64,000 bases of DNA, taken from positions 1-64,000 of the forward strand of contig JASBTD010000063.1 in the NCBI GenBank assembly GCA_030148605.1, given 5' to 3'. Of the stretch, positions 16,380 to 58,312 are shown in pieces (the first letter of the stretch is position 1; each line of letters starts with the position of its first letter). Origin of the DNA: Erythrobacter sp. (lineage in GTDB: Bacteria; Pseudomonadota; Alphaproteobacteria; Sphingomonadales; Sphingomonadaceae). Both the position numbers and the translations under genes were made by a program. Under the pieces are notes generated by a model. That model did not search any database. It was not told the DNA's origin and saw only the letters and a program-made list of their open reading frames with translations.

Positions 16380-16450
16380 TCCCCGCGCAGGCGGGGACCT
16401 CAACCAGACCAGAGCACCGGTTTAGCAGATCCCCGCTTTCGCGGGGAATC
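16380..16450. repeat. Two-hairpin palindromic repeat
   Basis: The element holds CCCCGC-GCAG-type and CCCCGC-TTTC-GCGGGG hairpins (second stem 16431-16445) joined by about 30 nt. A related copy with the same two hairpins lies at 58238-58312. It sits between the convergent ends of tig and the amidase gene, so it may also act in termination. There is no T-run, so I class it as a dispersed REP-type element. Confidence 0.7.
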
Positions 16451-27274: not shown

Positions 27275-28228
27275 TCATCGATTTAAACGAGCGGTTTGGT
27301 CGATTAGTTCCTGCATATCCGCAGGCAGTTCCGAAGCAAATTCGATCCATTCGCCGCTCACCGGGTGCTGAAAGCCAAGCGATGCCGCATGCAAGGCTTG
27401 CCTTTCGAAACCCAAATCCTTGAGAATCCTGCGTAATTCAGTCGGAGTACGTCCATATAACGGGTCTCCTAATAGCGCATGACCGATTGACGCACAGTGA
27501 ACGCGAACCTGGTGGGTTCGCCCTGTTTCCAGGCGGCATTCGATCAGACTCGCCGATCTGAGCTTCCTTAAAAGCTTATAGTGGGTAACCGCGTGTTTGC
27601 CGCGTGAGGAATTCTTGTCGAGCACAGCCATTTTCTTGCGGTTGGCATCGGAACGCCCGATTCGCGTGGCAATCGTGCCTTCTTCAGGCCTTGGGTGGCC
27701 CGCGCATACCGCCAGATAGCGCCGTTCGATCGAGTGATCCTTGAACTGTTTGGCAAGCCCTTCATGCGCCTTGTCGCTCTTGGCAACTACCAGCAGGCCC
27801 GATGTGTCCTTGTCGATCCGGTGGACAATGCCGGGCCGCGCAACCCCGCCGATTCCGGACAGCTGGCCCTTGCAATGGTGGAGCAGCGCATTGACCAGTG
27901 TACCATCCGGATTGCCTGCCGCCGGGTGGACAACCATGCCGGCGGGCTTGTCCACCACGATCAGATTCGCGTCTTCAAACACGACATTGAGCGGGATGTC
28001 TTGCGGCTGCGCTTCGGCTTCGGCGGCGGGTGGAACATGGATTTCGAAACGCGCGCCTGCGGGCACCTTGGCCTTGGCGCTGGTTTCGACCTTTCCGGAA
28101 ACCGAAACGCGCCCTTCAGCGATCAGCGCCTGTATGCGCGCACGCGACAGTTCCGTGACTTCGGCCAGCGCCTTGTCGAGCCGGTCTGCCGACATCACTG
28201 AACCAAAGATAGTTTGCGGCTGAGTCAC
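27275..28228 (-). CDS. rluD: RluD-type 23S rRNA pseudouridine synthase
   Basis: The 317-residue enzyme converts uridines of 23S rRNA helix 69 to pseudouridine. An S4-like RNA-binding domain (RLDKALAEVTELSRARIQALI) precedes the catalytic core with HRIDKDTSGLLVVAKS, which holds the catalytic Asp. The motif LETGRTHQVRVH follows. The start is uncertain. GTG 28228 has GGAAAAG upstream; ATG 28195 has no site. The frame continues to GTG 28276, but those codons lie in an inserted repeat and read SPSTSSGQT, so I exclude them. Confidence 0.92.
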   Translation of the reverse strand: MTQPQTIFGSVMSADRLDKALAEVTELSRARIQALIAEGRVSVSGKVETSAKAKVPAGARFEIHVPPAAEAEAQPQDIPLNVVFEDANLIVVDKPAGMVVHPAAGNPDGTLVNALLHHCKGQLSGIGGVARPGIVHRIDKDTSGLLVVAKSDKAHEGLAKQFKDHSIERRYLAVCAGHPRPEEGTIATRIGRSDANRKKMAVLDKNSSRGKHAVTHYKLLRKLRSASLIECRLETGRTHQVRVHCASIGHALLGDPLYGRTPTELRRILKDLGFERQALHAASLGFQHPVSGEWIEFASELPADMQELIDQTARLNR

Positions 28229-28239
28229 AAGGTTCTTTT

Positions 28240-28268
28240 CCGTCTGCCCTGAGCTTGTCGAAGGGCTG
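28240..28268 (-). repeat. 29-bp REP-type repeat, left copy
   Basis: This 29-mer is the exact reverse complement of the copy at 28568-28596. Its core is CCCTGAGCTTGTCGAAGGG. Both copies bracket the GIY-YIG gene. Variant copies lie at 44660-44688 and 44709-44737. Confidence 0.9.
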
Positions 28269-28289
28269 CACTTCACTTATCCCAAAGCT

Positions 28290-28988
28290 ATGCCTTTTTG
28301 GACGTACATTCTCCACTGCAATGCGGGAGTTTTCTACACAGGGCATACAGACGATCTTGATCGCCGTGTAGCAGATCACAAAGCTGGTCGCTTCAAGGGC
28401 TTCTCGAAAAGATTCCTTCCTGTCGAGTTGGTTTGGGCTCAGGAGTTTTCCACTCGCGAGGAGGCCAAGGCTGCTGAAAAGCAAATCAAAGGTTGGTCAC
28501 GGAAGAAAAAGCTCGCACTCATTCGCGGAGATTGGCCGGAGATCTCGCGACTTGCCAAAAAGAAAAGCAGCCCTTCGACAAGCTCAGGGCAGACGGGGTT
28601 TGTGGTGGCGGGATCGGTTATGGATCAATTGCGCGACAGTGCTGCACAAGCCCATCCGCGCGAGTGTTGCGGGATATTGCTTGGCGGGGGCGGGCGGATC
28701 ACGCGGGCATATCCGACGCAAAACGTCCATCCCGCACCTGAAACCCATTTCGAAATCGACCCGCAAGCGCTGATCGATGCGCACCGCGCCGCGCGCGAAG
28801 GCGGGCCGCAAGTCATCGGCTATTATCATTCGCACCCCACGGGATACGCCGTGCCGTCCGAGAGGGATCGCGCCATGGCTTCGGGTGACGGGCGGATCTG
28901 GGCGATCATCGCGCGGGAGGAGATCACATTCTGGCGGGACAGCCCCGATGCGTTCGAGCCGCTTTCCTACAATGTGTTCGAGGGCTAG
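28290..28988 (+). CDS. GIY-YIG nuclease fused through a repeat to a JAMM metalloprotease
   Basis: The 232-residue frame has two unrelated domains. Residues 1-90 are a UPF0213-type GIY-YIG nuclease (WTYILHC, GVFYTGHTDDLDRRVADH, EEAKAAEKQIKGW). Residues about 94-103 read SPSTSSGQTG and are the translation of the 29-bp repeat. Residues about 105-232 are a JAB/MPN M67-type peptidase with HPRECCGILLGG and the zinc motif HSHPTGYAVPSERD. No stop separates them. The JAMM part could also be translated alone from GTG 28599 or ATG 28620. Such M67 proteins often act on small ubiquitin-like or sulfur-carrier proteins. The GIY-YIG family is not an ordinary neighbour of it, so fusion by the repeat is the best reading. 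Confidence 0.85.
   Translation: MPFWTYILHCNAGVFYTGHTDDLDRRVADHKAGRFKGFSKRFLPVELVWAQEFSTREEAKAAEKQIKGWSRKKKLALIRGDWPEISRLAKKKSSPSTSSGQTGFVVAGSVMDQLRDSAAQAHPRECCGILLGGGGRITRAYPTQNVHPAPETHFEIDPQALIDAHRAAREGGPQVIGYYHSHPTGYAVPSERDRAMASGDGRIWAIIAREEITFWRDSPDAFEPLSYNVFEG
28568..28596 (+). repeat. 29-bp REP-type repeat, right copy inside the GIY-YIG/JAMM frame
   Basis: The sequence is identical, inverted, to 28240-28268. It lies in frame between the two domains and supplies the linker SPSTSSGQT. The 299 nt between the copies are almost filled by the GIY-YIG gene. Confidence 0.9.
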
Positions 28989-44659: not shown

Positions 44660-44737
44660 CCGTTCGGGCTGAGCTTGTCGAAGCCCTGTCCTTACTTCAA
44701 GAAAAATACAGCCCTTCGACAAGCTCAGGGCGAACGG
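44660..44737. repeat. REPIN-like pair of inverted 29-bp repeats
   Basis: Two inverted copies (44660-44688 and 44709-44737) of the family seen at 28240 and 28568 lie 20 nt apart between valS and queE. The right copy differs from those at 28568 only in its outer end (GCGAACGG for GCAGACGG). The left copy has two further changes. The pair can fold into a long hairpin, as REPINs do. Confidence 0.85.
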
Positions 44738-44744
44738 TAATGGG

Positions 44745-47600
44745 CTAACCCAGCCGCGCCAGTGCCGCGGTCAACCGTTCGACTTCGCCTGAATGATGCG
44801 CGTGGTCTTCACGCGCTTTCTCGACCGCTTCGGGCTTGGCGCGTTCGACGAAGTTCGGGTTCGACAAGCGACCTTCCAATGAGTTCGCTTCCTTCTGCGA
44901 GGCTTCGAGCGCCTTGGACAGGCGCGCCCTCTCCGCATCGATATCGATAACGCCTTCAAGCGGGATCACGAAAACGTCGCCTCCGGCTGTGACCTGCATC
45001 GCAGGGCCAGCAGGCGCTTCGCCAATGGTCACGGGCGTCAGGCGCGCCAAGCGCTCGATCGCTGCGCTGCTGCGCTCGATCGTGCTTGCTGCCAGGTCGG
45101 AGGCTTCGGGTAGGAAGGCCGCCAACTTCGCGCCGGGCGCTATGCCGAGCTCGTTCTTGGCGCTGCGGACATTGGTGGTGAGATCAATTACCCAGTCGAT
45201 CGCGTCGGTTGCATCCCTGGATACGCTGGCGCGCGGATCGGGCCATTTGGCCAGGATCAGATCGTAATTCCGGGTTCCAAGCGCATGCCACAGCTCTTCC
45301 GTGATGAACGGCATGAAGGGGTGCAGCATGACCAGGATCTGGTCGAGCGCCCACCCGGCAACCGCGCGGGTTTCGGACGCCGCAATCTCGCTCGCACCGT
45401 CTGCGAACACCGGCTTGATCAGTTCCAGATACCAGTCGCAGAAACGGCTCCACGTGAACTGGTAGATCGTGTTGGCGGCGGCATCGAAGCGCAGATCAGC
45501 CATTGCCGCGTCGAGCGCTTCTACAGTCTGCTGGACTTCGCCGATGATCCACTGGTTTGCCGCGAGCCTGGCTTCGGGCGCCTTGATGGTGCTTGACGCG
45601 CCGATCCCGTTGGACTGGCAGAACCGCGTCGCGTTCCACAGTTTGGTGGCGAAGTTGCGGTATCCCTCGACCCGCTTCTCATCCATCTTGATGTCGCGGC
45701 CCTGGCTTTCCATCGCCGCCATGAAGAAGCGCAGCGCATCCGCGCCATATTGGTCGATCAGGCCGAGCGGATCGACCACATTGCCCTTGGACTTGGACAT
45801 TTTCGCGCCGTCTGCTGCACGCACTAGGCCGTGCAGGTAAAGGCGCGGCCACGGGGCCTGCCCGGTGTTGTAATACCCTGCCATCATCATCCGCGCGTCC
45901 CAGAAGAACAGGATGTCGAACCCGCTGATGAGCAGGTTGTTGGGATAGTGTTTCGAGAACAGATCCTCCCCGGAACGGGGAGGGGGACCGTCCGCAGGAC
46001 GGTGGAGGGGAGCCTCAGCGCCGTCCAGTTCTTGCGGCGAATCCCCTCTGTCATCCGACGCTGACGCGTCGGCTGCCACCTCCCCAGTTTGGGGAGGATT
46101 GGGCCATCCCAGCGTCGCGAAGGGCCAGAGCGCTGAGGAGAACCATGTGTCGAGGACATCAGAGTCTTGCGTTAAGGCTACGCCTTCACCCGCTTGAGCC
46201 TGCGCCTCCTCTTCGGACATTGCGACATAGCACTCGCCATTGTCGCCATACCACGCTGGAATCCGGTGCCCCCACCAGAGCTGGCGGCTGACGCACCACG
46301 GCTGGATGTTTTCCATCCAGTTGAAGAAGGTCTTTTCCCAGCTCTTCGGGACGATCTCGATCTCGCCCGACTTGACCGCTGCGATCGGCTTTTTCGCCAG
46401 TTCCCCAGCATTCACATACCACTGGTCGGTCAGCCACGGCTCGATCACTACCCCGCCGCGATCGCCAAAGGGCGTTGCGATCTGGCGCGGTTCGGCGTCC
46501 AGTTCGACTTCCTCGCCCTTCTTGTTCTTCTGCACATGCGGGATGAGGAAACCCTGTTCCTTCAGGCGCTGCACAACCAATTCGCGCGCGCCGTCGACGC
46601 CGTCACGACGGAAGCGGTGCAGGCCGATGAATTCCTCCGGCACTTTGCCATCCGCAGTTTGGCAAACATTCGCATCCCCATCGAGCATGTTGAGCATGTC
46701 CGCCGGTGCAATCCCCGCGCGTTTGCCCACTTCGAAGTCGTTGAAATCATGCCCCGGCGTGATCTTCACCGCGCCTGAACCCAGTTCGGGATCCGCGTGC
46801 TCGTCTGCGACGATGGGAATGCGGCGGCCCGTGATCGGCAGGATCACATGCTTGCCGACCACCGACTTGTAACGCTCGTCATCCGGGTGAACCGCCACCG
46901 CCATATCGGCCAGCATTGTCTCGGGACGGGTTGTCGCAACTTCGATGTAATCGCGCCCGTCATCGAGCGTCACTCCGTCCGCGAGCGGATATTTGAAGTG
47001 CCAGAAACTCCCGGCAATCGTCTGCTGCTCGACTTCAAGATCCGAAATCGCGGTTTTCAGCTTGGGGTCCCAATTGACCAGCCTTTTGTCGCGGTAGAGC
47101 AGCCCGTCATTGTAAAGGTCGACGAAAACCTTGAGCACGGCCTTGGTGAAATGCTCGTCCATGGTGAACTGCTCGCGGCTCCAGTCCATCGAACAGCCCA
47201 GGCGGCGCAGCTGGCGGGTGATAGTGCCGCCCGATTCCTCTTTCCACTCCCACACCTTTTGCACGAATTCTTCGCGCGAATAGTTCGTGCGCTTGTCCTG
47301 CCGCTCTTCCAGCTGGCGTTCGACCACCATCTGCGTGGCAATGCCCGCATGGTCCGTGCCGACCACCCACAGAGCGTCTTTGCCCTTCAGGCGCTCGTAA
47401 CGGATCACGATATCCTGCAGCGTGTTATCCAGCGCGTGGCCGATATGGAGCGATCCGGTCACATTGGGCGGCGGGTTCACGATGGTGAAGGGCTCGGCAT
47501 CGGGGCGCTCGGGCCGGAATGCGCCGCTCTCTTCCCAGTGGGAATACCATTTCGCCTCGATTGCGGCGGGATCGAAAGTTGTATCTAGCTGTTTGCTCAT
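44745..47600 (-). CDS. valS: Valyl-tRNA synthetase with an inserted palindromic peptide
   Basis: The 951-residue class I synthetase charges tRNA-Val. HIGH lies at residues 52-55 (GSLHIGHAL) and KMSKS near 600-604 (AKMSKSKGN). The editing domain is in between, and a C-terminal coiled-coil ([19 protein letters not shown]) ends it. ATG 47600 is the family start. After FATLGWP (residue about 500) about 46 extra residues appear before the usual [12 protein letters not shown]. They are Pro/Asp/Ala-rich and are encoded by a DNA element of four hairpins. The frame is intact, so the enzyme is probably active. Confidence 0.96.
45962..46099. repeat. 138-bp palindromic element inserted in frame in valS
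   Basis: Four hairpins are visible: CCTCCCC/GGGGAGG (45965-45983), ACCGTCC/GGACGGT (45987-46003), CCGACGC/GCGTCGG (46055-46072) and CCTCCCC/GGGGAGG (46079-46097). The outer ends are also inverted (GATCCTCCCC and GGGGAGGATT). The length, 138 nt, is a multiple of three. It codes for the extra residues 501-546 of ValS. I know similar CCTCCCC-type palindromes as dispersed repeats in sphingomonads. Confidence 0.85.
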
Positions 47601-58237: not shown

Positions 58238-58312
58238 CACCCGCGCAGGCGGGGGCCTCTATCAATCTGGCGAAGCGCCTGTGGACTGAGGTCCCCGCCT
58301 TCGCGGGGATTC
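58238..58312. repeat. Two-hairpin palindromic repeat between gatC and gatA
   Basis: The element holds a CCCGC-GCAG-GCGGG hairpin and a CCCCGC-CTTC-GCGGGG hairpin (58293-58308) with about 30 nt between them. It is a relative of 16380-16450. It lies inside the gatC-gatA operon, so it must allow read-through or be cut as RNA. Confidence 0.7.

Follow-up and report, generated by a model that had tools for sequence, protein, structure and literature searches.

Two kinds of repeat system described so far come close to the locus analyzed here. CGTC REPs are palindromic repeats that are abundant in alphaproteobacteria, occur mostly as head-to-head pairs and have a stem of 8–9 bp with a loop of 4–5 nt; they "apparently lack a dedicated transposase" (Di Nocera 2013, PMC3733652). 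In the second arrangement, that of RAYTs, REPtrons and REPINs, one small enzyme gene, a Y1 transposase, is enclosed by inverted repeats and pairs of these repeats without a gene are found elsewhere in the genome. A further relative is defined by its protein family. GIY-YIG single-strand nucleases termed Ssn, together with a cognate Neisseria repeat (NTS), were reportedly published in 2025. Ssn enzymes cleave single-stranded repeat DNA in a site-specific manner and their function concerns transformation, where they limit the uptake of foreign DNA. Structures are available for two UPF0213 proteins, PDB 1zg2 and 1ywl, which are listed as hypothetical proteins with no function given.

We investigated a 64,000-nucleotide stretch of the Erythrobacter sp. 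assembly GCA_030148605.1, in the following called the window. It contains a 30-nt repeat at 28240..28269 (+ strand), whose tag CCGTCTG points outward to the left, and the exact reverse complement of this repeat at 28567..28596 (− strand), with the tag pointing outward to the right. A preliminary description had reported two exactly complementary copies of 29 nt around a GIY-YIG gene; the perfect core turned out to be one nucleotide longer and is embedded in arms (28240-28274 and 28562-28596) that are 94% complementary. The inverted pair reaches a score of 30 compared with a mean of 7.7 and a maximum of 11 in 15 windows from the same locus. The space between the arms is filled by the gene with the GIY-YIG domain, as had been noted. 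In the ORF starting at 28290 the PF01541 match has 60.7 bits (cut-off 22.6) and covers residues 3–74. The segment that served as query (28290..28580, + strand) carries the conserved Y6, Y16-x-G18, R26 and E63, which we take to be the catalytic residues. Its profile matches 1zg2 (E 3.9e-18) and 1ywl (E 2.9e-14). Domain, conserved residues and UPF0213 relatives in the PDB thus assign the gene to the GIY-YIG nucleases, and presumably it belongs to the same small family as Ssn (UPF0213/COG2827-type). The unit is adjoined by a JAMM/Prok-JAB host gene (28620..28988, + strand) on the right and by a gene for an rluD-type pseudouridine synthase (27275..28228, − strand) on the other side. The rluD start at about 28228 was inferred by eye from an alignment with empty sites; in the ORF list the start is placed at 28276, within the repeat.

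The locus resembles the RAYT, REPtron and REPIN systems in that one small enzyme gene is located inside inverted repeats and gene-less pairs exist elsewhere in the genome. Unlike in RAYTs and REPtrons, the enzyme is a GIY-YIG nuclease instead of a Y1 transposase and the tag of the repeat differs as well; the contrast with RAYTs drawn in the preliminary description holds, as no Y1 transposase was detected in this genome. With Ssn, as far as we are aware of that work, the locus shares an enzyme of the small GIY-YIG family and a cognate repeat in many copies, here 25 cores in the genome in addition to the flanking pair at the gene. The family of the window repeat differs, with a CCGTTCG-like tag and a short stem, and our emphasis is on the mobile unit: its empty sites, its copies in inverted orientation, the pairs without a gene and the fusion to the neighboring gene. 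Since Ssn appears to have linked the protein family to Neisseria repeats, the pairing of nuclease and repeat is probably known already, and the earlier statement that this is not an established system was probably too strong. In a literature search that left most subscription papers outside, no paper on repeat-flanked GIY-YIG units was found, and the anatomy of the mobile unit may be new. As for CGTC REPs, many of the nuclease genes analyzed here are flanked by CGTC-tagged palindromic repeats, but the window repeat with its CCGTCTG tag, 5-bp stem and 11-nt loop does not have the CGTC structure.

Five PF01541 matches are present in the Erythrobacter genome and four of them are found with the window protein as query. 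The inverted repeats on the flanks score at least 15 for two of these four (the window copy and L003); L002 and L004 lie below this threshold with 12 and 14, and the fifth, more distant gene (L005) has a flank score of 9, which corresponds to control level. The 17-nt repeat core CCTGAGCYTGTCGAAGG is found in 25 copies in the genome compared with 0 for a reversed-pattern control. An outward-facing inverted partner within 100 nt exists for 18 of these cores, and of the other seven two represent the arms of the nuclease unit and five have no partner above threshold. Direct or inward-facing partners were found for none of the 25 cores. Short inverted pairs without a gene are the common form of the window repeat. 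One such pair is located at 44660..44737 directly downstream of valS, a − strand gene with the 3' end of its match at 44748 (segment 44748-45380). The preliminary description had listed it as a related inverted pair, and it indeed consists of the same repeat as the window unit with tags outward and arms that are 87% complementary. In the pairs L256, L259, L267 and L276 the inner DNA next to the repeats resembles the ends of the nuclease unit when compared by eye, as expected of internal deletion derivatives. Outward-facing gene-less pairs such as 44660-44737 look like derivatives of the nuclease unit.

With the window protein as query, matches were obtained in 41 of 61 related genomes. We placed 107 GIY-YIG gene copies in 105 loci and compared their flanks with control windows of equal geometry elsewhere in the same loci, a score of at least 15 counting as a flanking inverted repeat. 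This value was reached by 83 of the 107 copies compared with 5 of 512 control windows; 15 copies score 12–14 and nine score below 12. The nuclease-repeat module proposed in the preliminary description therefore recurs in relatives far above control, if not at each of its 107 copies. In two loci supplied to the flank analysis (L005 and L140) no gene of the family was found. Named genomes of bacteria and archaea were scanned as well, giving at least 591 candidate loci with at least 586 of them confirmed, and the best 80 showed a similar picture: 62 of these 80 pass the threshold and 18 fail, compared with 5 of 419 control windows. An outer CGTC-like tag, counted by a loose pattern at either outer end, accompanies 58 of the 62 passing loci among the best 80 of at least 591. 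Besides alpha-, beta-, gamma- and deltaproteobacteria, these best 80 represent Nitrospirae, Chloroflexi, a cyanobacterium and further taxa. Loci of Neisseria gonorrhoeae (L180), a Neisseria MAG (L213) and Bergeriella denitrificans (L184) are among the named ones, their flank scores being 18, 19 and 23, respectively. Among 299 genomes drawn evenly from the phylum, the nuclease profile has a match at E 1e-12 or better in 81, a number that refers to gene presence only. At the level of sequence, flanking by inverted repeats is a general property of this GIY-YIG family.

Repeat families and nuclease clades track each other. Repeats were assigned to six classes by regular expressions, the window repeat being of class A, with 8 of the 107 rows labeled "other" and 9 "none". 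Mapped on the 107-row nuclease tree, the labels require 22 changes compared with a mean of 64.0 after shuffling, and 0 of 200 shuffles gave a value as low; inherited loci and near-copies exaggerate this clustering, and the tree stems from a short alignment with few columns. Class B forms one supported branch inside the clade holding class A, so repeat identity changed within a clade. In one genome (G036) nucleases with A, C and D repeats are present together.

The preliminary description had also suggested checking whether repeat counts depend on the presence of the gene. Among same-genus genomes, the median number of A-repeat cores is 12.5 in the 10 genomes with an A nuclease compared with 2 in the 27 without (permutation p 0.00008). 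For the B repeat the values are 17 with a B nuclease (n=3) and 0 without (n=34; p 0.00083). After subtraction of the two flanking copies p values of 0.0003 (A) and 0.001 (B) were obtained, and cross comparisons of repeat count with the non-matching nuclease were not significant (p 0.22 and 0.75). There are exceptions: G025, G007 and G001 are rich in A repeats (18, 16 and 12 copies) with no A nuclease found, and G025 also has 23 B copies with no B nuclease found. When the comparison is restricted to independent pairs on a tree of rluD and JAMM, only four (A) and three (B) supported pairs remain. Repeat count follows the nuclease on average in 2.1–2.8 of the 4 A pairs and in 2.7 of the 3 B pairs, and the reverse is almost never seen. 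Sign tests on these 4 A and 3 B pairs were not significant, and the tree-corrected test cannot reach significance because there are too few independent pairs. Such a dependence is thus seen in the direct comparison of genomes, with the exceptions named, and is not significant after tree correction.

We then compared the gap between rluD and JAMM in the 36 same-genus genomes with JAMM, reading its contents by eye. Empty sites at this junction, for which a search had been suggested earlier, are the rule: 24 of the 36 gaps are bare, being 74–86 bp long with neither nuclease nor repeat core. The nuclease is present in 7 genomes with a gap of 402–475 bp, and the other 5 gaps measure 140–797 bp. CGTC-type pairs are contained in the gaps of L038 and L057, the latter (G025) also having a single A-like repeat and no gene. 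As a side observation, the nuclease-free gaps L041 (G015) and L057 show CGTC-type pairs together with A-like repeat fragments, as would be left by the decay of one unit and the arrival of others. In G036 (L047/L011) the unit is inverted at this site. On a tree built from rluD and JAMM, which are the neighbor genes themselves, occupancy requires 7 changes for the 7 occupied genomes and at least 4 of them are forced by supported branches. As with homing endonuclease genes, both occupied and empty versions of the site exist.

Additional signs of mobility come from closely similar copies within individual genomes. Five such pairs were found, in five genomes: L105/L106 (98.6% over 433 bp), L129/L130 (98.5% over 481 bp), L089/L097 (95.4% over 415 bp), L076/L088 (93.8% over 453 bp) and L136/L142 (89.9% over 417 bp). 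Blastn matches in their surroundings otherwise do not exceed 27 bp on the strand compared. Homology extends past the repeats by 0–27 bp on the left and 9–50 bp on the right, indicating that the segment that moves does not simply coincide with the DNA from one repeat to the other. Target-site duplications at these copies were not noticed by eye. In L076/L088, L105/L106 and L129/L130 the shared DNA past the right repeat contains, in several copies, GTCCGC- and GGGGTCG-like motifs; this stretch might belong to the unit as an additional outer portion or be a favored target. Two other gene ends show variable occupancy. At the 3' end of valS there is a gene-less A pair in the window, an E-type nuclease unit in G026 and neither in 20 of 22 loci (a lone F-pattern match being present in one of the 20), and the 3' end of era carries a unit in 4 of 23 loci; these fractions are not unbiased since L105, L106 and L129 were included because they carry units. 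Taken from such sequence comparisons, the GIY-YIG unit looks mobile. In L121 (G058) two unit copies are arranged in tandem, being 98% identical over 589 bp.

The right end of the window unit is open. No stop codon closes the GIY-YIG frame ahead of the right repeat, and it stays open from 28290 to 28988 (+ strand, 232 aa), comprising the nuclease, the translated right repeat and a JAMM/Prok-JAB domain with 93.7 bits. JAMM could also start internally, at the ATG at 28620 or at either of two GTG codons preceding it. A continuation of the nuclease frame into JAMM at the rluD-JAMM site is observed in six genomes (L006, L007, L008, L009, L012 and L016), all of which have in-frame start codons near the JAMM start. 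Since reading continues across the right repeat to the host gene, the latter could be made as a fusion. At the inverted copy in G036 (L011) the frame of the nuclease leads into RluD instead and spans 416 aa, and no ATG, GTG or TTG was found from residue 70 to about RluD residue 15, suggesting that RluD in this genome is made as a GIY-RluD fusion. Fusion of nuclease and host gene is not general among the copies. Of the A-class copies, 11 reach the repeat threshold; in 7 of these the frame extends well beyond the repeat and in 4 it ends ahead of it, and in class C 25 of 33 frames stop before the right repeat. With regard to a role of the JAMM half in defence, only weak JAB-type matches were obtained.

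We consider it likely, with a probability of about 70%, that 28240-28596 represents a minimal mobile unit consisting of one UPF0213/COG2827-type GIY-YIG gene between inverted copies of its own repeat with tags outward, and we infer that the nuclease itself spreads the repeat. By analogy with what is reported of Ssn, the enzyme would recognize its own repeat, probably as single-stranded DNA, and would cut there. Host enzymes would repair or replicate the cut ends and in this way spread the unit and its gene-less pairs; strand joining is beyond a GIY-YIG enzyme on its own and requires recombination by the host. The main rival is a homing-type variant, in which the nuclease cuts gene-less pairs, recombination between repeats copies the gene in by gene conversion and the pairs are spread by other means. 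The repeats and orientation common to unit and gene-less pairs fit this variant, as do the valS end with its A pair in the window and E-type unit in G026 and the single A-type repeat without a gene at the rluD-JAMM site of G025. We nevertheless regard it as unlikely, given that most vacant rluD-JAMM sites are bare of the repeat (24 of 36) and that within-genome copies share DNA past the repeats, which is unexpected if only DNA from repeat to repeat is copied.

Even less probable is an explanation without any mobility, by which the repeats act as terminators or as nuclease targets limiting uptake of foreign DNA, are kept by selection, and vary in occupancy through loss. The location of repeats at gene ends would agree with this, and the function reported for Ssn is transformation, not transposition, but copies 90–99% identical in unrelated surroundings, the inverted unit at one site and the scattered occupancy argue against it. 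RAYT-type mobility, with a Y1 transposase moving the repeats and the GIY-YIG gene as a passenger, was rejected as very improbable. The REP-like pairs do resemble REPINs, and Y1 genes exist in 10 of 61 genomes, but no Y1 (PF01797) match was found in 34 of the 37 genomes of this genus, the present one among them. Moreover, Y1 loci are not repeat-flanked: the six repeat classes are found on both sides of 0 of 20 Y1 loci and on one side of 1 of 20, flank positions being unreliable for 10 of the 20 that are cut by contig ends, compared with the same repeat class on both sides of 85 of 107 GIY-YIG copies. That a GIY-YIG gene landed by chance between two copies of a repeat common in the genome (25 copies) was likewise rejected and has a negligible probability, because flanking lies far above control in both data sets, among the relatives (83/107 vs 5/512) as well as among the best 80 of at least 591 named loci (62/80 vs 5/419).

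A broader proposal can be made, which we put forward tentatively and at somewhat less than even odds: CGTC- and CCGTTCG-type repeats would be non-autonomous derivatives of transposable units of ~0.36–0.48 kb with a repeat-specific GIY-YIG nuclease as their only gene. Nuclease and repeat would co-evolve, and the open right end could fuse the nuclease to a host gene in either orientation. Our comparisons provide CGTC repeats and the related window repeat with a candidate partner enzyme in many phyla; the 2013 survey (PMC3733652) had concluded that CGTC repeats apparently have no transposase of their own. Natural duplicates, empty sites and the inverted copy make movement testable, and repeat families with different nuclease clades provide ready matched and mismatched enzyme-substrate pairs. 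Should the Ssn work already cover flanking repeats, the anatomy of the mobile unit and the fusion to rluD or JAMM would be what is left.

Finally we assessed the folding of the repeats. The window repeat forms a 5-bp stem with an 11-nt loop at −4.1 kcal/mol (z −1.07), and 34 of 200 shuffles fold as well; the B repeat folds no better than its shuffles (z 0.37). Only the C-type repeat, of which one was folded, folds well (−8.0, z −2.94) with an 8-bp stem and a 4-nt loop, and the C-type repeats of the relatives have the CGTC tag. Given this weak hairpin of the window repeat, sequence may matter more than structure. The window also contains, at 16380-16402 and 58287-58309, an inverted pair of the CCCCGCG..GCGGGG type, whose copies are 42 kb apart and 96% complementary and resemble the C-class repeats of the relatives.
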